Assembly: GCA_022482815.1 (NCBI GenBank) | Contig: JAKVOM010000001.1 | Span: 186,001-250,000, forward strand | DNA: 64,000 nt | Source: Acidaminococcus sp. | Lineage (GTDB): Bacteria; Bacillota; Negativicutes; Acidaminococcales; Acidaminococcaceae | Reading direction: 5' to 3' | Shown: positions 37,612-48,067 of the stretch, in pieces | Layout: each line of letters starts with the position of its first letter | How positions within the stretch are numbered: position 1 is the first letter of the stretch | Translations under genes and position numbers: made by a program | The notes under the pieces: model-generated | Databases searched by the model: none | What the model saw: only the letters and a program-made list of their open reading frames with translations | What the model was told of the DNA's origin: nothing

Positions 37612-38838
37612 TTATTTGCCGCTGCCGCAGAGACCGCAGACAAGCTTTTCCAGGACATCCACCATAGTCCCCAGGGATGCTTCTGGAATGAATTCATAGC
37701 GGCTATGGAAGAGATAACCTCCCGTTGAAAGGTTCGGGCAAGGCAGTCCCATCCTGCTGAGACGGGCACCGTCCGTACCCCCGCGGATTGGTTGGATTTT
37801 TACCGTAACGCCGCAGGCTTCGAAAGCTTTCTTGGCTTCCTCCACAAGTTCCATATGCTGCTCAATGACAGGTCTCATATTAAGGTACTGGTCTTTAATT
37901 GCAACGGAGACCACACCTTCGCCCCACTTTTTATTGAGTGCGGCTGCAATGGCATTGACTTTATCCTTTTGTGCCTGGAATTTTGCACTGTCATGCTCAC
38001 GGAGCAAATATTTCAGTTCACAGTGTTCCACGCTGCCCTTAAAGGATGATAAATGGTAGAACCCTTCATAGCCTTCCGTATAGACCGGCTGTTCTTTTTC
38101 CGGCAGCATGTTCTGGAACTCACAGCCCACAGCTGCTGCGTTGATCATCTGTCCCTTGGCGTCGCCCGTATGAACACTGACGCCATTAATGGTAACGACG
38201 GCCAGTGCAGCATTGAAATTTTCATATTCCAGTTCGCCCAGAGCTCCGCCGTCCACCGTGTAGGCTACGTCCGCACCGAATTTCTTGAGGTCGAAATATT
38301 CCGTACCATTGCCCACTTCCTCATCCGGGGTAAAAGCAATGCGAATCTTACCATGCTTCGGAGCCGCCGGATTCATCATGCGCTCGGCAAGCGTCACAAT
38401 TTCAGCAACCCCCGCCTTGTCATCAGCGCCGAGAAGGGTCGTACCGTCTGTCATGATGAGGCGCTTGCCAACCATCGCTTTTAAATCCGGGAAAACATCC
38501 GGTGTCATCACAATCTGCTTATCGGCATTCAGGACGACATCTCCGCCCTTATAATCCACGAATTGCGGATGAATGGGGCCGCCGGCTACAGCGTTACTCG
38601 TATCAAAGTGGCTGATCAGCCCAATGACAGGTGCCCCTTCCGCCGTGGCCGGAACCGTGCCCGTCACGTAACCATACTGGTCCTGTTCGACATCCTGAAG
38701 TCCAAGTTCCCTCAGTTCTTCGGCAATCGCCTTGCCCAGCACCAATTGGTTCGGACTGGAAGGGTACGTCTTGGCATCATCGATTGAGGTCGTGTCCGTT
38801 TGAATGTAATTGAGGAAACGTTCTACAGCTGTTTTCAT
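37612..38838 (-). CDS. pepT: Peptidase T (tripeptide aminopeptidase)
   Basis: Zinc aminopeptidase of the M20B family removing the N-terminal residue of tripeptides, 408 residues, full length. Motifs: VIGLISHFDTSNAV (metal His, catalytic Asp), TLLGADDKAGVAEIV (bridging Asp), IAFTPDEEVGNGTEYFD (catalytic Glu), TVDGGALGELEYE and IRGGTDGARLSRMGLPCPNL. AAGGAGAAA precedes the ATG. Apparently monocistronic. Confidence 0.95.
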   Translation of the reverse strand: MKTAVERFLNYIQTDTTSIDDAKTYPSSPNQLVLGKAIAEELRELGLQDVEQDQYGYVTGTVPATAEGAPVIGLISHFDTSNAVAGGPIHPQFVDYKGGDVVLNADKQIVMTPDVFPDLKAMVGKRLIMTDGTTLLGADDKAGVAEIVTLAERMMNPAAPKHGKIRIAFTPDEEVGNGTEYFDLKKFGADVAYTVDGGALGELEYENFNAALAVVTINGVSVHTGDAKGQMINAAAVGCEFQNMLPEKEQPVYTEGYEGFYHLSSFKGSVEHCELKYLLREHDSAKFQAQKDKVNAIAAALNKKWGEGVVSVAIKDQYLNMRPVIEQHMELVEEAKKAFEACGVTVKIQPIRGGTDGARLSRMGLPCPNLSTGGYLFHSRYEFIPEASLGTMVDVLEKLVCGLCGSGK

Positions 38839-38892
38839 TATAAATTTCTCCTTCTCTTATTCATATTGATCCCCAAAAGCATTTTCAAGCCT

Positions 38893-39444
38893 TCACTCCG
38901 GCTTAAAAAGCGGGAGATTAGCCAATACAGTAATATCCTTGCGGCCGATGGAATCCCCTTCGGCTAAAATGGCCTCACGGCCCATAATGTGAGCTCCGGC
39001 CTTATTCATCAGTTCCTCCAGTGCTTTCATGGAACCACCCGTGCTGATGACATCATCTACGAGAAGCACATTCTTTCCCCTGATCAATTCAATATCTGCA
39101 TCCTGGAGCACCAGCATTTGTTTTCCTTTTGTCGTAATGGACTCATCTTCCACAACAAGCGGATGTTCCATATAAGCCTTAATAGATTTGCGGGCCACTA
39201 CATACCGCTTCATACCCATGAGGCGGGCCATTTCGTGAACGAGAGGAATCCCCTTCGTTTCAGCGGCCACAAGATAATCCGTACCTTCAGGAACATACTT
39301 CACCAGTTCCTTTGCCGCATTGCTGACAAGCTCTACATCTCCCAAAATCACAAATCCTGCGATGGCAAGCGTCGGTGAAATCGGAAGAATCGGCAGCTTG
39401 CGCGTACATCCGGCCACTTTCAGCTCATAAAAACGATCAGCCAT
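38893..39444 (-). CDS. Adenine phosphoribosyltransferase-like protein
   Basis: Purine-type phosphoribosyltransferase of 183 residues, starting MADRFYELKVAGCTRKLPIL at the ATG at 39444 (AGGGAGGC upstream). The PRPP loop is VLLVDDVISTGGSMKALEEL (Asp-Asp pair), with YLVAAETKGIPLVHEMAR earlier. The N-terminal part differs from classic Apt, so the base specificity (adenine, xanthine or other) is uncertain. It borders the DnaA-box cluster. Confidence 0.85.
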   Translation of the reverse strand: MADRFYELKVAGCTRKLPILPISPTLAIAGFVILGDVELVSNAAKELVKYVPEGTDYLVAAETKGIPLVHEMARLMGMKRYVVARKSIKAYMEHPLVVEDESITTKGKQMLVLQDADIELIRGKNVLLVDDVISTGGSMKALEELMNKAGAHIMGREAILAEGDSIGRKDITVLANLPLFKPE

Positions 39445-39472
39445 TCTATTGCCTCCCTTGGACAAAATCAAT

Positions 39473-39804
39473 TTATCCACTGCAGCAGTCCCCATATCAT
39501 CAGTCTGCAGAGGACTTATCCACAGTTTTTTATCCACAAGGCTTTTGAAAACCTGTGGATAACTTTTAATTTTTTACTGTTCCTAAAGCATCGAAAAGCA
39601 AAAAAGTCAAGTTATTTTTTTGACTAAGCAGTCATCTACTCCCGCATAAATTCAGCATTTCCGGCTCTTTTGTTCGATTTTTTCACTGTCCGGTTCCGGC
39701 CGTAAAAATTATCCACAAGCGCTTTGTAGTCCCCATCGGACTTGTGGACAACTTAATTTTACTTATCCACAGTTATCCACATTATCCACAGTCGTTGTGG
39801 ATAA
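39473..39804. other. Cluster of DnaA boxes
   Basis: Eight perfect 9-mers TTATCCACA or complement: 39516, 39530, 39554 (reverse), 39709, 39763, 39773, 39782 and 39796 (reverse). Two near matches lie at 39473 (TTATCCACT) and 39743 (TGTGGACAA, reverse). Four perfect boxes fall within 42 bases at the right end. Between the two groups lies an A/T-rich stretch (about 39560-39640) with GTCAA/TTGAC arms. The cluster sits in a 564-base gene-free gap. It is either a replication origin, part of one, or a DnaA-titrating or regulatory site. Confidence 0.85.
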
Positions 39805-40008
39805 GTCAGTGCATAACCCGGCGGGTGCAGAAGAATTCAAGCCTGCCGCAGGCTGATTCCGGGCAGCATCATATTTCACAATAACTGCTTTTTTCTTTGC
39901 TGAAGTCCCTGCAATACAGCCCTGAAATTCGGAATTTATACAAAGACAAACAAAAGGGGAAAACTTTGCCCGTATAATCGGGAACAACAGTTTTCCTCCA
40001 TTCGTTTT

Positions 40009-40317
40009 TTAAAGATTTTCTGCCATCTTAGGAGGCATGCTCCACTCGACAAGCACTTCCGTGTTTTCCCACAGACGGCCCAGTACAAGCTTGGCATCTT
40101 CCCAGCTGTCGGCAGCATTCACCGTTTTCTTTTCAAAATGATAGGTACACTCATCCCTGGGAACACTTAAAGTCAAAGGCTTTGCCAAAAAGTCCAGCAC
40201 TGCTTTTTCAGCTTCTGCCTGCCCTTCCAGGTGTGCGGAAAACTTTTTAGCCTCCTCATCGTATTCCAAATAGCCATACTGGCCCTTATAGTTAAGTGTT
40301 ACCATTTTCGTTGCCAT
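40009..40317 (-). CDS. Small hypothetical protein
   Basis: A 102-residue soluble, mildly acidic protein: MATKMVTLNYKGQYGYLEYD at the start, a central VPRDECTYHFEKKTVNAADS and a VLVEWSMPPKMAENL end. GGAGTG lies upstream of the ATG. Predicted content looks like beta strands with a helix (HLEGQAEAEKAVLDFLAK). I do not recognise a family. It faces the DnaA-box cluster with its 3' end. Confidence 0.7.
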   Translation of the reverse strand: MATKMVTLNYKGQYGYLEYDEEAKKFSAHLEGQAEAEKAVLDFLAKPLTLSVPRDECTYHFEKKTVNAADSWEDAKLVLGRLWENTEVLVEWSMPPKMAENL

Positions 40318-40477
40318 AAAGACACTCCAATCCTCTATTTATCATAAATTATACAGCAATCTATAATGTAAACATTATATCACAACGCTATAGGAAAGTG
40401 GTGAAAATCGGTACTGCTTTTGACAGGTGGCAAAGGCTGACTTTACCGGTCGATTGTAAAGCCTAAAGGTTAAAAGA

Positions 40478-40538
40478 AGCTATCCTCCACCGCACTCATC
40501 AGCACTTCCTGCCGTCAGTGCTGACTGCGGTTCTCCTT
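40478..40538 (+). repeat. REP-like repeat family B, left part interrupted by IS110
   Basis: AAGCTATCCTCCACCGCACT, then TCAGCACTTCCTGCCGTCAG, then TGCTGACTGCGGTTCTCCTT. It matches 16210-16270 closely until CTCCTT, where the IS110 element begins. Confidence 0.75.
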
Positions 40539-40775
40539 GTATCATATGAATAAGGACTTTACCTCCTTTTGGGGATAAAGTGCTACACTGTAAAAGATGC
40601 TGTGGATTGGTTAATGTCCTCCTACCGATAAACGGTTTTATGGAGATTCCGACCACAGCTCTTTGCAGCGATGTTAATAAGTTAGATACCGCCAGACGGT
40701 TTATATAGAACAAGGATACATGGCAAAGAGTTTGTGGACTCAGCATCATATCTTTATCTTTGAGGAGGTCTTTTT
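40539..40775 (+). ncRNA. Candidate bridge-RNA region of the IS110 element
   Basis: A 237-base non-coding left end before the transposase. In the IS110 group the left end encodes the bridge RNA that pairs with both target and donor DNA. A CTCCTTTTGG stretch at 40557-40566 resembles the target CTCCTTTCG and could belong to the target-binding loop. RNA boundaries and loops were not determined. Confidence 0.5.
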
Positions 40776-42023
40776 ATGATCTACGTTGGAATTGATGTAT
40801 CTAAGAGCAAACACGACTGCTGCATCCTTGATTCTGAGCATAAGGACGACTACGAGGAATTCACGATCCCCAATACCCGGAATGGTTATGACCACCTGCT
40901 AAAGCGAATTTTTTCCTACAATCAATCGGTAAAAAATATAAAAGCAGGGCTGGAGGCCACCGGAGAGTATAGTGTGAACATCACCAGATTCCTGTTGAAC
41001 AATGGCCTAGCAACCTGCGTTCTCAATCCTCTGCTGACGGATCAATACAGAAAGAGTCATAGCCTTCGCAAAACTAAAACCGATCGCATTGACGCACACT
41101 TCATTGCTTGCATACTTATGTCCGATTTAGACCTCAAGCCCTACGTACCCCAAGAATACCACAATAAAGTCTTGAAGTCACTAACCAGGACTCGCTTTGG
41201 ATGGGTTCATGAACGGTCTCTAAAAAAGCAAACCCTTACCCGTATAATTGATACTAGCTTTTCTGAACTTCCACAGTACATAAACCTGGATTCTGCTACC
41301 GCTCACGCTCTCCTTAAGGAGTATCCCACTCCCGAGAAAATGGCGAACGCAAATTTGAAACACATGAAAGAAATTATCTACAAAACATCCAAAGGCAGGT
41401 TAAGTATGGATCTGGCTGAGCAGATTCGTAACGCTGCAAGGCATTCCGTAGGTCTGGGCAAAAGCGATATATCTACTGAAATTAATGTAGTGGAAACAAT
41501 ACACGATATTGAGGTAAAAAACGAACAAATTCAAAAAGTTGAGTCCAGAATTAAAAAACTGTTAGAGGAACGTAAAGAACCGTTACTTACAATCCCTGGG
41601 ATTAGTATTGCTACAGGGTCCGCAATTTTAGGAGAAATTGGGGATTTCTCCAGATTTTCCTCCCCCGACAAGATACTGGCCTATGCCGGATTTGCGCCCT
41701 CTAAGAACCAGTCAGGCCGGCGGAGTGGAATAGGACCGAGTGCCCATATGGAGAAAAGAGGATCACGATATCTACGTCATGCTCTCTTCAATGCGGCAAG
41801 ATTCGTCTGCCAAAATGAACCAGCTTACAAAGAATATTTGGCAAAGAAATTAAGCGAAGGAAAACATTTCTATATAGCAATCTCTCACGTAGTTAAAAAG
41901 TTAGTACGTCTAATCTATGCACTTCAAACGAGAGGAATCCCATACAAAACACCTGCTCAATTAATGCTTCAAAGGCAGATAAATACTGGCTCCGATTCAC
42001 AGGATTTTGCACTTGACATATGA
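40776..42023 (+). CDS. IS110-family transposase (DEDD)
   Basis: 415 residues. The N-terminal RuvC-like DEDD domain: MIYVGIDVSKSKHDCCILDS (first Asp), AGLEATGEYSVNI (Glu), KTKTDRIDAHFIACIL (last Asp pair). The C-terminal transposase_20 domain: LLTIPGISIATGSAILGEIG, then ILAYAGFAPSKNQSGRRSG and RYLRHALFNAARF with the catalytic Ser region. GAGGAGGT precedes the ATG. All signatures appear intact. Confidence 0.95.
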   Translation: MIYVGIDVSKSKHDCCILDSEHKDDYEEFTIPNTRNGYDHLLKRIFSYNQSVKNIKAGLEATGEYSVNITRFLLNNGLATCVLNPLLTDQYRKSHSLRKTKTDRIDAHFIACILMSDLDLKPYVPQEYHNKVLKSLTRTRFGWVHERSLKKQTLTRIIDTSFSELPQYINLDSATAHALLKEYPTPEKMANANLKHMKEIIYKTSKGRLSMDLAEQIRNAARHSVGLGKSDISTEINVVETIHDIEVKNEQIQKVESRIKKLLEERKEPLLTIPGISIATGSAILGEIGDFSRFSSPDKILAYAGFAPSKNQSGRRSGIGPSAHMEKRGSRYLRHALFNAARFVCQNEPAYKEYLAKKLSEGKHFYIAISHVVKKLVRLIYALQTRGIPYKTPAQLMLQRQINTGSDSQDFALDI

Positions 42024-42534: not shown

Positions 42535-44649
42535 TCACTCTTCTGCTTTATGATACACAGGCTTCAACCTCTGCTCCATCGGCATCTCCTTCTTAGGCGC
42601 ATGCTCAATCGCCCATTTCATCATACTCTCCTGGGCGCTGACAGGTTCGCGGCCATGGGAAGTAACGCGGCGATAAGTACCATTTGTCAGCATGACGTGC
42701 GCACCGAGGTTATCCCGCAGGCAGAAATTCAGGAATTCCTTGATGCGGGCAATGTGTTCCGGCCGTTCAATCGGGAACATCAGTTCCACACGTTCACTCA
42801 AGTTACGATGCATCATATCGGCACTGGATAAATAGAGTTCCTCGTGTCCGCCGTTGGCGAAATAATACACGCGGTGATGCTCAAGAAAGCGCCCGATAAT
42901 GGAACGGACGGTAATGTTATCGCTGATGCCCTTGAGGCCCGGAATCAGGCCGCAGATACCGCGGACAATCAGCTCAATCTTCACGCCGGCCCGGGAAGCC
43001 TCATAGAACTTTTCAATCATGGGCTGATCCATGAAGGAGTTCATCTTGGCAATAATGTGACCTCCCTTGCCTTCTTTCACGTGCTGGATTTCCCGGTCCA
43101 CCAGGTCATACATTTTCTGGCGCAGCCCCAACGGTGCCATGATGAGTTTATGGAATGCGGGCGGTTCGGAATAACCACTCAGTACGTTGAAGAAGGCAGA
43201 AGCATCTTCACCGTAAAGGTCGTTGGCCGTCAGGAGACCAAAGTCCGTATAGATTTTAGCGGTTTTATCATTATAGTTGCCGGTGCCCAGATGGACGTAC
43301 CGTTTGATGCCTTCCGGTTCTTTGCGTACTACCAGCGTAATTTTGGAGTGCGTCTTAAGTCCGACAAGACCATAAATGACGTGGCAGCCGGCACGTTCCA
43401 GGCGGCGTGCCCAGACAATGTTGTTTTCTTCATCAAAACGAGCCTTTAATTCCACCAGTGCCGTGACCTGCTTGCCGTTTTCGGCAGCGCGGGCAAGTGC
43501 CGCAACAATGGGAGAATTGCCGCTGACGCGGTACAGGGTCTGCTTGATGGCAAGGACATTCGGATCTTCCGCAGCGTCCGCCACAAGTTTGACGACGGGA
43601 TCAAAGCTTTCATACGGATGGTGCAGCAGGATATCATGTTCGCGGATCTGGTCAAAAAGATGATCATACGTCGGCAGTTCTGCAGGCTGCTGCGGCGAAA
43701 ATGGCGGGAAACACCAGCGTTCCATGCCGGGCAGGCCAATGAAACGGAAGAGGAACGTCAAATCCAGCGGTCCTCTGATTTCATAGACGTCCTGTTCTTC
43801 CAATTCAAGGTTCTTCACCAGAAAATCTTTCAGGAAATTACCGCTCTGAGGATTGATTTCAAGCCGGACAGCACTGCCCCGTTTCCGCTTTTTCAAGGAC
43901 AGTTCGATTTCTTTCATCAGGTCGTGCGTTTCATCTTCATCGACTTCGAGGTCGGAGTCACGGGTGATGCGGAAAGTAACCATATCCACAATCTTAAGGC
44001 CCTTGAACAGGTCCTTGCAGTGTTCCATGATAATGTCTTCCAGAAAGACAAAGAGCCTTTCTCCCTTTTGCCCTTTGACTTCCAGAAAACGCGGCAGGAC
44101 GGAAGGCACCTGGATGAAGGCAATCTTCTGTTCATTCTTTTCGTCGCGCAGTTCCACGGCGATATTCAGGGATTTATTGGCAAGGAACGGGAAAGGACGG
44201 GCCGCATCGATGGCCATCGGTGTGAGCACCGGGAAGACATCTTCACGGTAATACCGTTCCAGTTCCTGGTGCTGTTCCTGAGTCAGTTCAAAAACTCTCT
44301 TGAAACAAATACCATATTGTTCCAATTCCTTGAGCAGGGCGAATAAATAATGATATTTCAGCTTCATTTCGCTGTGCGCTTCCACAGCGATGCGCTTCAA
44401 TTGTTCCGTCGGAGTCAGTCCGGCCATATCCGGACGCTCAATGCCGCTCGCCTGGCGATTGATCAGACCGGCGACACGAACCATGAAGAATTCATCCAGA
44501 TTGGACGCGGAAATCGCAACAAAGCGCAGGCGCTCGCAAAGGGGAATTCTTCTCACACCGGCTTCCTTCAGCACGCGAAGGTTGAATTTCAGCCAGCTCA
44601 GTTCCCTGTTGATGTAGTATTCAGGTTTCGTCAGATCCACAACAGACAT
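42535..44649 (-). CDS. ppk1: Polyphosphate kinase 1
   Basis: Reversible synthesis of inorganic polyphosphate from ATP, 704 residues, full length. N-terminal domain: YYINRELSWLKFNLRVLKEA and LDEFFMVRVAGL. Catalytic phospholipase D-like domains: DPNVLAIKQTLYRVSGNSPI, VTALVELKARFDEENNI and YVHLGTGNYNDKTAKIYTD, with the His that is phosphorylated, then GLIPGLKGISDNITVRSIIG and LSSADMMHRNLSERVEL. AAGAGGAGG precedes the ATG. The gene follows the Ppx-like gene after three bases, forming an operon. Confidence 0.95.
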   Translation of the reverse strand: MSVVDLTKPEYYINRELSWLKFNLRVLKEAGVRRIPLCERLRFVAISASNLDEFFMVRVAGLINRQASGIERPDMAGLTPTEQLKRIAVEAHSEMKLKYHYLFALLKELEQYGICFKRVFELTQEQHQELERYYREDVFPVLTPMAIDAARPFPFLANKSLNIAVELRDEKNEQKIAFIQVPSVLPRFLEVKGQKGERLFVFLEDIIMEHCKDLFKGLKIVDMVTFRITRDSDLEVDEDETHDLMKEIELSLKKRKRGSAVRLEINPQSGNFLKDFLVKNLELEEQDVYEIRGPLDLTFLFRFIGLPGMERWCFPPFSPQQPAELPTYDHLFDQIREHDILLHHPYESFDPVVKLVADAAEDPNVLAIKQTLYRVSGNSPIVAALARAAENGKQVTALVELKARFDEENNIVWARRLERAGCHVIYGLVGLKTHSKITLVVRKEPEGIKRYVHLGTGNYNDKTAKIYTDFGLLTANDLYGEDASAFFNVLSGYSEPPAFHKLIMAPLGLRQKMYDLVDREIQHVKEGKGGHIIAKMNSFMDQPMIEKFYEASRAGVKIELIVRGICGLIPGLKGISDNITVRSIIGRFLEHHRVYYFANGGHEELYLSSADMMHRNLSERVELMFPIERPEHIARIKEFLNFCLRDNLGAHVMLTNGTYRRVTSHGREPVSAQESMMKWAIEHAPKKEMPMEQRLKPVYHKAEE

Positions 44650-44652
44650 GGA

Positions 44653-46209
44653 TTAAACCTCCTCTTGCTTTAGTACAGGCTTCAGGCCGTAAACTTCTTC
44701 GAAAACCGTTCCCCGTTTTTCAAAGGTCCAGCGTTCCAGGGAAAAGTCTTCCCTGCTCCTGACCTTCACGACAAAATTATTATCCTTGATGGATGCCTTG
44801 CATTTCGCCACTTTGTTCTTCCGGCTGACATCCAGACAATCTGCCATACGCAGGATAGCCGCCAATTTTGCCACCCGCGGCGTAATGCTGATATGCCGTT
44901 CATACAATTCCACGGCCTGAGAATCCAGGGAATCCACGGAATAAAGAAAAGCAATCTCCGCAATCATCTGCCGTTCTTCCCGGCTGAAACCAATGAGGTC
45001 CGCGTCACGGATGATTTCATAGTTATACAAATTATGAGAGCGCAGGGACAGGTACTTGCCTACTCCGTGGAGAGCAGCAGCCGCGCGCAGATAAAGCAAA
45101 TCCGCCTTATCCAGCCCCTGGGAAGATGCCAGGGCGGCAAAAAGTGAGCAGCAGAAACCTTCCACCAGGTCTGCGTGTTTTTTATTATAGAAAAGACGAT
45201 GACCGATGCCGCGGATCTGACTGAGCTGCAGTTCCTGCATGAGGCGGATGAACTCTTTATCGGTCTGTCCTGCAATATAGAGCGTTTTCATGCCGTCGAT
45301 AAAGCGGCTTGTGGGAATGGTAATCCGGCTCGTCTTTGCCAGGGCAGCCAGCTGATAATACAGTGCCGCAGCCGGCAGGGCCAGTTCCGTTTCTCCATCC
45401 GTCAGATGATAAAGTTTAATCATCTGGTCCTTCGTCAGGGTGTGAACGCGCTTATAAAGCGTTTCGAGTTCGTCCAGCGTAATATGGATAAAACCCTGCG
45501 TGTCAGGACGCTTGCGCAGCATCTTGTTGATGAACATACCTTCGGCACCGCTCAAAATCAGGGAATCCATCTTTTTGCCCGCCAGTTCTTCTGCTACCGG
45601 AATAATGTGCGCTGCGATATACTCTTTCAGGGCATCCTCAAAATGGATGCTCGCCTGTTCATTGCGCGTGAAATATTCCTTCAGGCGAATCAGCCCGACA
45701 TGCAGGTTTTGCTGATACTGGATTTCACCACTATCCATATAGGTAAAGCCCATGCCCCCGGAAGAAATATCGACCATCAGCCAGCTGGCCGCGGGCAGTT
45801 CCTCTGTAGTACGGATGCCCATAGCATTCATAAAGGAAGCCAGTTTCGTGAAGATTTCTCTTGGCATATTGACGACGTCAATCTTGAACCCGGTCTTCAC
45901 AAAAATCTGATCGAGGAAGTACTCCTTGTTCTCCGCTTCCCGGACAGCTGTCGTCGCCTGCAGGATATAGGAACGGATTCCATAATCCTTCATGAGCAGC
46001 CGGAAGCCCTTCAGGATCGTCACGATTTTCTGGATTGTATCCAGGGAAATGCGTCCTGTCTGGAACGTCTCTTCACCCAGTCTGACAGCATGGGTGGCTG
46101 AATCAAGAATTTTGATATCATTCAGCCCGGAGTATTGAATCAGCTGCATCGTCACTTTTTCGGAGCCTAAGTGGATGACTGCCGCCGAGTAGTTTTTTTT
46201 CTTCGCCAT
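44653..46209 (-). CDS. Ppx/GppA-like protein with degenerate active site plus HD-like domain
   Basis: 518 residues from the ATG at 46209 (GGAGGATGGAGG upstream). The fold is that of exopolyphosphatase/GppA, but the phosphate-binding motifs are eroded. The usual DxGSNS reads VIHLGSEKVTM, the GxExEA loop reads VVNMPREIFTKLA and the DxGGGSTE loop reads MVDISSGGMGFTYM. The C-terminal part (YLRAAAALHGVGKYLSLRSH) resembles the HD region of Ppx, also without a clear HD pair. It is probably not a phosphatase but a binding or regulatory partner, perhaps of Ppk1, with which it is cotranscribed. Confidence 0.78.
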   Translation of the reverse strand: MAKKKNYSAAVIHLGSEKVTMQLIQYSGLNDIKILDSATHAVRLGEETFQTGRISLDTIQKIVTILKGFRLLMKDYGIRSYILQATTAVREAENKEYFLDQIFVKTGFKIDVVNMPREIFTKLASFMNAMGIRTTEELPAASWLMVDISSGGMGFTYMDSGEIQYQQNLHVGLIRLKEYFTRNEQASIHFEDALKEYIAAHIIPVAEELAGKKMDSLILSGAEGMFINKMLRKRPDTQGFIHITLDELETLYKRVHTLTKDQMIKLYHLTDGETELALPAAALYYQLAALAKTSRITIPTSRFIDGMKTLYIAGQTDKEFIRLMQELQLSQIRGIGHRLFYNKKHADLVEGFCCSLFAALASSQGLDKADLLYLRAAAALHGVGKYLSLRSHNLYNYEIIRDADLIGFSREERQMIAEIAFLYSVDSLDSQAVELYERHISITPRVAKLAAILRMADCLDVSRKNKVAKCKASIKDNNFVVKVRSREDFSLERWTFEKRGTVFEEVYGLKPVLKQEEV

Positions 46210-46465
46210 AGAATCCTCCATCCTCCAATACCGGTGATTTCGCTTTCGCGCATAAAAAAACCGCCGATTCAATATGAATGACTATATTTAAAATCAGGCG
46301 TCTTGTCTATGAAAAAAAATCATAATCCGTGTTATACTTAATACAAAATAATCGGATTCGAATTTATTCTATCACTCTTGGCACATAAATGCTCCCATTT
46401 TACACAAACTTTACAACCATATGCCATGATATAGGAAGATAGTTCCCAAACAAAGGGGTACGGAT

Positions 46466-48067
46466 ATGAAAAGAATCGGAATCATTGACGTCGGGTCAAA
46501 CTCAGCCCGCCTCGTCATCATGGAAATTGATGAGTCCAAAGGTTCACGTCTGGCCTATAACCAGAAAGACCCGCTGCGGCTGGCACTCAAGACTGACAAA
46601 AATGGATATTTGACGGAAGAGGCCTTCTCTGCTACTGTCACCTGTCTGAGAGGTTTCGCCTCCATGTGCCACTTCTTCCACACGGACGAAATCATCGCCG
46701 TCGCTACAGCCGCTATCAGAAACGCAAAAAACGGTGCCAAGCTTGTTAAATCTGTAAGAGAAAAAACCGGAATCGATCTGGAAATCATCTCCGGCAAAAC
46801 CGAAGCTTACTTGAGTTATCTCGGCGTCATCAATACCATCAACGTAAAAGATGCCGTCATCTTCGACCTGGGCGGCGGTTCTACCGAAGTCATCCTGGTC
46901 CGCGACAGAAAGCTTGTCGATTCCATCAGTCTGCCCATCGGCTGTGTCAACTTAACAAAAGCCAGCCGTCAAAACGGCTCAAATAGTACCGAAGACATGA
47001 AAATCATGAACAAGCTGATTACAGATCAGCTGTCCAAGACACCCTGGCTCGACAACTGCGGTCTGCCTCTTGTCGGCGTCGGCGGTACAGCTCGTTCCAT
47101 CGGCAAAGTCGAAGAAAAGCGGCAGAAATATTTCACGGCCAAACTGCATAATTTCCAGTTTGACCTGAATGATTTCAAAGACTGGTACAAAAGTATGGCT
47201 TCTACGGCTCCGCCTCTGCGCCGCCGCATTCCCGGCCTGTCTTCGGATCGTGCCGACGTCATTCTGGCAGGTTCTTCCATTATCAAGGGCATTGCCGATA
47301 AAGCCAAATCGAAAAGATTTATCATCTCGGGCTGCGGTCTGCGTGAAGGACTGTTCTGCCAGTATCTGCACCAGCACACGTCCCGCCCGCTCATCATTCC
47401 GGATATCCTGAAGGAAAGCCAGAATGATATGATTCATATGTACTGCCCGGATGAGCAGCACGGCCGCCTTGTGGCAAAATTTGCCATGGAACTTTTCCGC
47501 GGCTGGCAGAGACTGCATCAACTGGATCCGAAACGCTGGGGGCCGCTGCTGGAAACCGCTGCCCTGCTCCATGATTCGGGCATTACCATTAACTTCTACA
47601 ACCACACCCGCCACAGCGGCTACATCATTGAAAACAGCCGTCTTTTCGGGCTGAGCCATATGGACGTGGTCTTTGCCTCCATCATCGCGGCCTGGCATCA
47701 CGGTATCAACCGCACCTATCTGCGCAATAAACCATACCGCAAGCTCCTTACGGAAAATGACATCCAGGAACTGAGCAAAGCCGCACTGCTCCTGGCCATG
47801 GCCGAATGCCTGGATTATACACAGAGCGGTGTCGTTGAAAACATCGAGGCTCGTGTGAACAGCGGCATGGCTACGCTGACCCTCATCGCCCGGGTAGATC
47901 CGGCCATGGAGCTGAGTCGCCTGAACGCCATGATGAAATGGATCCGCAAGACCCTGGGCTGTCCGCTGACCCTGCTCGTCAAAGCCGGCGTGCCCAAAGC
48001 CGCTCCGGTTTCGCCGGTGAGGAATCATGTGAAAGTAGAAGAAGTTGTAAATCAGCAGCGTCAATAA
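46466..48067 (+). CDS. ppx: Exopolyphosphatase / guanosine pentaphosphatase (Ppx/GppA)
   Basis: Degrades polyphosphate processively or hydrolyses pppGpp, 533 residues. Motifs are canonical: GIIDVGSNSARLVIMEI, IAVATAAIRNAKNG, EIISGKTEAYLSYLGV and FDLGGGSTEVILV. The C-terminal HD-type domain has AALLHDSGITINFYNHTRHSGYII and ASIIAAWHHG. AAGGGG precedes the ATG. It is divergent from the degenerate Ppx-like/ppk1 operon across 256 bases, so synthesis and breakdown of polyphosphate are encoded back to back. Confidence 0.92.
   Translation: MKRIGIIDVGSNSARLVIMEIDESKGSRLAYNQKDPLRLALKTDKNGYLTEEAFSATVTCLRGFASMCHFFHTDEIIAVATAAIRNAKNGAKLVKSVREKTGIDLEIISGKTEAYLSYLGVINTINVKDAVIFDLGGGSTEVILVRDRKLVDSISLPIGCVNLTKASRQNGSNSTEDMKIMNKLITDQLSKTPWLDNCGLPLVGVGGTARSIGKVEEKRQKYFTAKLHNFQFDLNDFKDWYKSMASTAPPLRRRIPGLSSDRADVILAGSSIIKGIADKAKSKRFIISGCGLREGLFCQYLHQHTSRPLIIPDILKESQNDMIHMYCPDEQHGRLVAKFAMELFRGWQRLHQLDPKRWGPLLETAALLHDSGITINFYNHTRHSGYIIENSRLFGLSHMDVVFASIIAAWHHGINRTYLRNKPYRKLLTENDIQELSKAALLLAMAECLDYTQSGVVENIEARVNSGMATLTLIARVDPAMELSRLNAMMKWIRKTLGCPLTLLVKAGVPKAAPVSPVRNHVKVEEVVNQQRQ

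Follow-up and report, generated by a model that had tools for sequence, protein, structure and literature searches.

The Acidaminococcus window analysed here, a 64,000-bp stretch of a genome assembled as one contig of 3,057,042 bp, contains a dense cluster of DnaA boxes that is genuine, recurs in relatives and is not a replication origin, and that is probably a chromosomal DnaA-binding reservoir of the DnaA-box-cluster (DBC) kind. The cluster appears to be a relocated reservoir, standing in for an older one downstream of tsaD (gcp), and this probable history of relocation makes it more interesting than it was at first description. The features of the locus, in window coordinates, are as follows.

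38893–39444, minus strand: gene after the cluster, encoding a purine phosphoribosyltransferase (PRT; NCBIfam PRK07322, "adenine phosphoribosyltransferase" subfamily, 228.8 bits, cut-off 143)
39473–39804, unstranded: DnaA-box cluster, whole, with eight perfect and two one-mismatch boxes in 332 bp (contig 225473–225804)
39473–39562, unstranded: proximal array, boxes 39473+ (one mismatch, TTATCCACT), 39516+, 39530+ and 39554−
39563–39708, unstranded: spacer between the arrays, GC 0.36
39709–39804, unstranded: distal array, boxes 39709+, 39743− (one mismatch, TTGTCCACA), 39763+, 39773+, 39782+ and 39796−
40009–40317, minus strand: orf102, gene before the cluster, encoding a 102-residue protein with no family assigned
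40776–42023, plus strand: IS110-family transposase gene, between ppk and orf102 in the window's genome and 1 kb from the cluster
42535–44649, minus strand: polyphosphate kinase gene ppk, the usual neighbour of orf102

A motif scan confirmed the ten boxes within 332 bp, and the four perfect ones within 42 bp (39763–39804), that the preliminary description had reported. The eight perfect boxes of the cluster are the only ones in the 64-kb window, for which 100 dinucleotide-preserving shuffles gave a mean of 0.49 and a maximum of 2. Genome-wide, 40 perfect boxes were counted against 7 for a reversed-motif control, with 8 of the 40 in the cluster; this rate corresponds to 0.004 perfect boxes per 289 bp and, for a single stretch picked post hoc, to a Poisson log10 P of about −24 for eight boxes. 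A chance origin of the cluster was rejected on the shuffles, the genome-wide count and the Poisson estimate. Structurally, boxes 39773 and 39782 of the distal array abut (9-bp step), with 39709 at 64 and 73 bp from that pair, and the proximal array contains a convergent pair with a start-to-start distance of 24 bp. Steps of the 64-bp kind (55, 63, 73) recur in a number of relatives and in many of the family's tsaD clusters, and are not among the commonest box steps phylum-wide.

No credible gene was found in the gap that holds the cluster (39445–40008), in line with its description as gene-free: the PRT frame can be extended, from a GTG start, as far as 39537, and the start common to relatives is the ATG at 39444. 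A structured RNA was rejected, with no Rfam match up to E 0.1 across 38800–40800, and a consensus scan of the spacer (39563–39708) found no terminator-like site. The A/T-rich centre that had also been described is real in the window's genome, where 6.6% of 146-bp windows across the 64 kb are equally low in GC, but it is absent from the three relatives measured, in which the spacer has a GC of 0.50–0.54. Acidaminococcus proteins are the closest named relatives of the PRT. The orf102 protein had no match in Pfam or NCBIfam, and ppk adjoins its gene in 17 of 20 orf102 loci read. Two divergent Ppx/GppA-type genes (44653–46272 and 46466–48067) adjoin ppk.

Within the genus, all nine Acidaminococcus genomes analysed had boxes in the corresponding orf102–PRT gap, which bears out the conservation in relatives that had been proposed as a check. 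Five genomes (G000, G002, G003, G006 and G007) combine a longer gap with one full dnaA match, with two arrays in all except G003, and four (G001, G004, G005 and G008) have a compact gap, the distal array alone and a second dnaA-like match. The proximal array is thus missing from G003 as well as from the compact four, and a convergent pair (23–25 bp) equivalent to the proximal one occurs in G002, G006, G007 and the sister-genus genomes G019 and G020. Compact species retain 4–5 boxes, of which 1–3 are perfect. Of the 36 ungapped box columns in an alignment of the compact four, 35 were invariant, against 21 of 42 other columns, and in that of the two-array genomes (G000, G002, G006 and G007; G003 is outside both) 58 of 90 against 27 of 237, box columns being those with a motif match in at least half of the rows, which raises their invariant share by construction; the finding of boxes in this gap in all nine genomes is free of this bias. 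In the five of nine genomes that have cluster and dnaA on one contig, the distance between the two is 0.146, 0.117, 0.095, 0.091 and 0.083 genome lengths (three of the five genome sizes are rounded), a similarity that may merely follow conserved gene order.

Two further observations concern the dnaA region in this genus. The second dnaA-like gene (G001:C1:88-1167, G004:C4:585836-586915, G005:C31:112082-113164 and G008:C4:311853-312917) occurs upstream of dnaA in all four compact-cluster species and only there, with a profile match that begins at position 75–81; the four are one clade, and the pairing with the compact cluster is possibly a coincidence. A further four perfect boxes, 10 kb from oriC, closely follow a gyrA-like gene that was named by eye (G000:C1:683604-683751, L050:3604-3751), and at least two perfect boxes about 10–11 kb from dnaA were found in G001–G004 as well, among the matches listed.

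Beyond the genus, the cluster is independent of the PRT gene. Homologues of orf102 were found in 47 of 59 family genomes, and 14 of these 47 carry boxes downstream of it (two or more boxes of no more than one mismatch within 330 bp of the gene end, a rule under which G031, whose one-mismatch boxes stand singly at 204 and 470 bp, scores as absent): the nine Acidaminococcus genomes plus G009, G019, G020, G021 and G042, which represent four other genera and have different sequence following the boxes. Only two boxes are present in each of G021 and G042, and G019 and G020 share the window's plan, with a distal group and then, about 190 bp on, a convergent pair 23–24 bp apart. At E 1e-30 the PRT gene was detected in nine of nine genus genomes and in one of 50 other family genomes (G029), and was not found in any of the five non-Acidaminococcus genomes with boxes. 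Boxes without the gene, together with its rarity outside the genus, thus make the cluster older than, or independent of, PRT, and these five genomes argue that the cluster is therefore not mainly a PRT promoter element.

These comparisons also bear on the proposal that the chief role of DnaA at the cluster is transcriptional control of PRT and/or orf102, as a link between purine salvage and replication or DnaA-ATP; we consider this unlikely. The layout in some species would suit such a role, as the proximal boxes lie 37–118 bp before the PRT start in the window's genome and boxes fill the short gap ahead of that start in G001, G004, G005 and G008, but G001, G003, G004, G005 and G008 lack the proximal array, and the 939 bp that precede the sole other PRT homologue of the family, in G029, are free of boxes. 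Two weak promoter-like matches fall on the PRT strand, one of them overlapping the distal array (three matches in all, 1.9 expected). From B. subtilis the indications run both ways: DnaA appears to repress some genes next to its binding regions, but the gcp region is described as lying between two 3′ ends, with no promoter there to control (PMC4447404). A DnaA-regulated promoter would tie the cluster to the regulated gene, and these boxes occur without it. Control of PRT by DnaA, as the preliminary description had suggested, may therefore exist as a side effect, but it is not the main reason for a cluster that five genomes keep without the gene.

In E. coli, hydrolysis of DnaA-ATP at datA is IHF-dependent. 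The window's cluster resembles datA in being non-coding and in its distance of about 0.1 genome length from oriC (datA 0.10, PMC5010248; here 0.08–0.15), but the two have no gene context in common, and datA converts DnaA-ATP to DnaA-ADP. To DARS1 and DARS2 the likeness is the recurring box geometry in an intergenic gap; DARS reactivate DnaA. A site that alters the nucleotide state of DnaA beyond mere binding, by datA-like hydrolysis or DARS-like reactivation, is accordingly suggested by the recurrence across species of convergent and abutting boxes and by the similar relative distance of datA, yet we regard it as decidedly improbable: IHF and Fis modulate DARS2 (PMC5010248) and shape DnaA binding at datA and DARS (PMC5295017), and for B. 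subtilis the latter review reports no identified regulator that turns DnaA-ATP into DnaA-ADP. Titration, a nucleotide effect and a transcriptional side effect cannot be told apart from sequence.

The closest likeness of the cluster, and the one behind our reading of it as a DnaA reservoir, is to the DBCs of B. subtilis, which likewise pack TTATCCACA-type boxes densely into non-coding sequence at a distance from oriC. DBCs are defined by at least three DnaA boxes with a mean spacing below 100 bp (PMC7561715); here ten boxes occupy 332 bp at 447 kb from dnaA, and the conservation looked for in a DBC is found in nine of nine genus genomes and in 14 of the 47 family genomes with orf102.

Positionally, the chromosomal origin is at dnaA, and the window's cluster is no origin. 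The cluster had been described as far from any dnaA gene, which holds, with dnaA at contig 672652–673992. GC skew, computed for the window and for 20 sampled 20-kb stretches, is opposite in sign on either side of dnaA/dnaN (negative on one side and positive on the other), with the sign change at about 673–675 kb and the reverse change between 2.32 and 2.5 Mb; of the 63 two-kb steps across the window, 62 have negative skew, with no switch at the cluster. The boxes that flank dnaA (672357–672554 and 674037–674203) number five perfect and nine one-mismatch, a group that exceeds the cluster only when one-mismatch boxes are counted (perfect boxes: eight in the cluster, five at dnaA), and a DnaA-trio run precedes dnaN in the window's genome, 13 bases past a box. 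Skew flip, box group and trio run coincide at dnaA/dnaN, and we therefore place oriC there. The preliminary description had entertained an oriC separated from dnaA, to be abandoned if a larger cluster lay beside dnaA at the skew minimum; the skew flip and the 14 boxes at dnaA refute it on its own terms. Compared with the bipartite Firmicutes oriC (rpmH-dnaA-dnaN), the cluster has the box content, but neither adjoining dnaA/dnaN or other replication genes, nor a skew change, nor a detected trio run, the trio scan being a weak discriminator that finds a run in only two of nine genus dnaA regions. A second or former origin, or one borne by a mobile element, is very remote: it could claim the box number and A/T-rich centre of the window's genome, the IS110 element 1 kb off and the double oriC proposed for A. 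fermentans DSM 20731 by Gao 2015 (PMC4403523), though at that strain's two dnaA genes and not here, but the skew flips at dnaA and not in the window, no trio run was seen at the cluster (weak, as the scan also missed seven of the nine genus dnaA regions), the A/T-rich centre is not conserved, and the IS110 transposase, the only mobile gene identified by the cluster, was found only in the window's own locus among the 20 orf102 loci read.

Evolutionarily, the window's reservoir appears to have a counterpart elsewhere. A search for abutting box pairs turned up clusters right after tsaD in further genera of the family; that the gene is tsaD was checked in L131. The abutting-pair pattern occurred in 92 of 300 genomes of the class, at many places (reversed control 0 in every row), and two of the 13 such loci read outside the family lay downstream of tsaD (L143, L145). 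With a rule of at least two boxes (at most one mismatch) within 150 bp of the gene end, the tsaD-downstream cluster was present in 25 of 56 informative family genomes, that is, in 25 of 47 outside the genus and, by this rule, in none of the nine Acidaminococcus genomes, G000 (one one-mismatch box 222 bp past tsaD) and G006 (two one-mismatch boxes, 294 and 330 bp past tsaD) being scored absent; the count dropped G046 (no tsaD hit) and G019 and G038 (contig ends), and G056 offered only 184 bp. Across the phylum, at least two boxes lay within 300 bp past tsaD in 68 of 109 genomes read, against 0 of 109 and 1 of 109 for control stretches before and inside the gene; the 109 were drawn from 117 tsaD-matching genomes besides the window's own, and the first 29 were the best-scoring. 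In these 68 clusters (L240–L348 set), 290 of 316 boxes point in one direction and 26 in the opposite one, and 51 contain an abutting pair. The phylum tsaD cluster probably corresponds to the gcp/ydiF region of B. subtilis, which has the same gene context (PMC4447404), and may be an ancestral DnaA reservoir. Compared by gene context, the window's cluster differs from the gcp/ydiF site in lying downstream of orf102 instead of tsaD, and it mixes convergent boxes, whereas the tsaD clusters are mostly one-way.

The distribution of the two clusters within the family is consistent with a shift from one place to the other. Three genomes (G020, G021 and G042) have boxes at both tsaD and orf102, and 21 of 56 have neither cluster, orf102 itself not being found in eight of the 21. 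A TsaD tree (56 rows, midpoint root only, with G037 and G038 left out as short and G046 having no tsaD) unites all 14 orf102-box genomes in a moderately supported (91/66) group of 16; the remaining two members, G029 and G030, are incomplete genomes in which orf102 was not found, and G031, which has the tsaD cluster only, adjoins the group. Under the midpoint root, the simplest history would be a gain at orf102, a period of overlap and loss at tsaD in Acidaminococcus. A pasted copy of the tsaD cluster at orf102 was also considered in the three genomes with both, where short-word BLAST matched the two places only up to 15 bp, so duplication is unsupported. Of the 14 genomes of genus g17, the three looked at lack both clusters, and all three have 6–8 boxes between a 4-alpha-glucanotransferase (malQ-like) gene and a UxaE-like gene (L352, L353 and L354, from G043, G050 and G049; the flanking proteins were classified in G050, and those of G043 and G049 were matched to them by eye). 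Separately, boxes in G049 (L357:1501-1660) adjoin a ParA/Soj-like gene and then a ParB-like gene (by eye), about 8 kb from dnaA. We tentatively posit, at slightly less than an even chance, that the phylum inherited a tsaD reservoir that moved in the Acidaminococcaceae, where an orf102 cluster arose beside the old one, Acidaminococcus lost the tsaD copy and g17 has its malQ/uxaE-like site, the cell needing a reservoir near oriC but in no fixed place.

Functionally, a DnaA reservoir, the second suggestion of the preliminary description, stands as the best-supported reading on the strength of conservation, position and the B. subtilis precedent, and we infer from these the DnaA binding itself, as well as titration and an effect on timing at the cluster. 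DnaA, probably in its ATP form, would bind the cluster as a cooperative array on tandem and convergent boxes; because the site lies 0.08–0.15 genome lengths from dnaA, it would be copied soon after each initiation, and this early copying would double the number of sites and lower free DnaA, helping to prevent early re-initiation at the dnaA/dnaN origin. In B. subtilis, removal of six box clusters leads to early initiation, which one cluster put back partly relieves (PMC5295017), and a cluster is weaker when moved to the terminus (PMC5010248). The first of these two sources, a review, also states that a B. subtilis cluster which plays a significant part in controlling initiation has yet to be identified (PMC5295017), so the precedent is modest. 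With 4–5 boxes in compact species and two in G021 and G042, titration capacity would vary much. Also counting against a reservoir, the cluster holds one fifth of the perfect boxes of the genome, and the rest, oriC included, would titrate too; and there are the 21 family genomes with neither cluster.

Non-origin DnaA-box clusters were already known, and to the orf102-side example the comparison adds a probable history of relocation; the open-access literature yielded nothing that pairs DnaA boxes with tsaD under that gene name, most subscription papers lying outside that search. To our knowledge, the weight of DnaA titration relative to DnaA-ATP hydrolysis in the timing of initiation outside E. 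coli is unsettled. If true, the relocation would be a natural experiment for the titration model, as a reservoir that recurs phylum-wide at tsaD and lies elsewhere in one lineage would provide matched sets of species in which titration could be tested.
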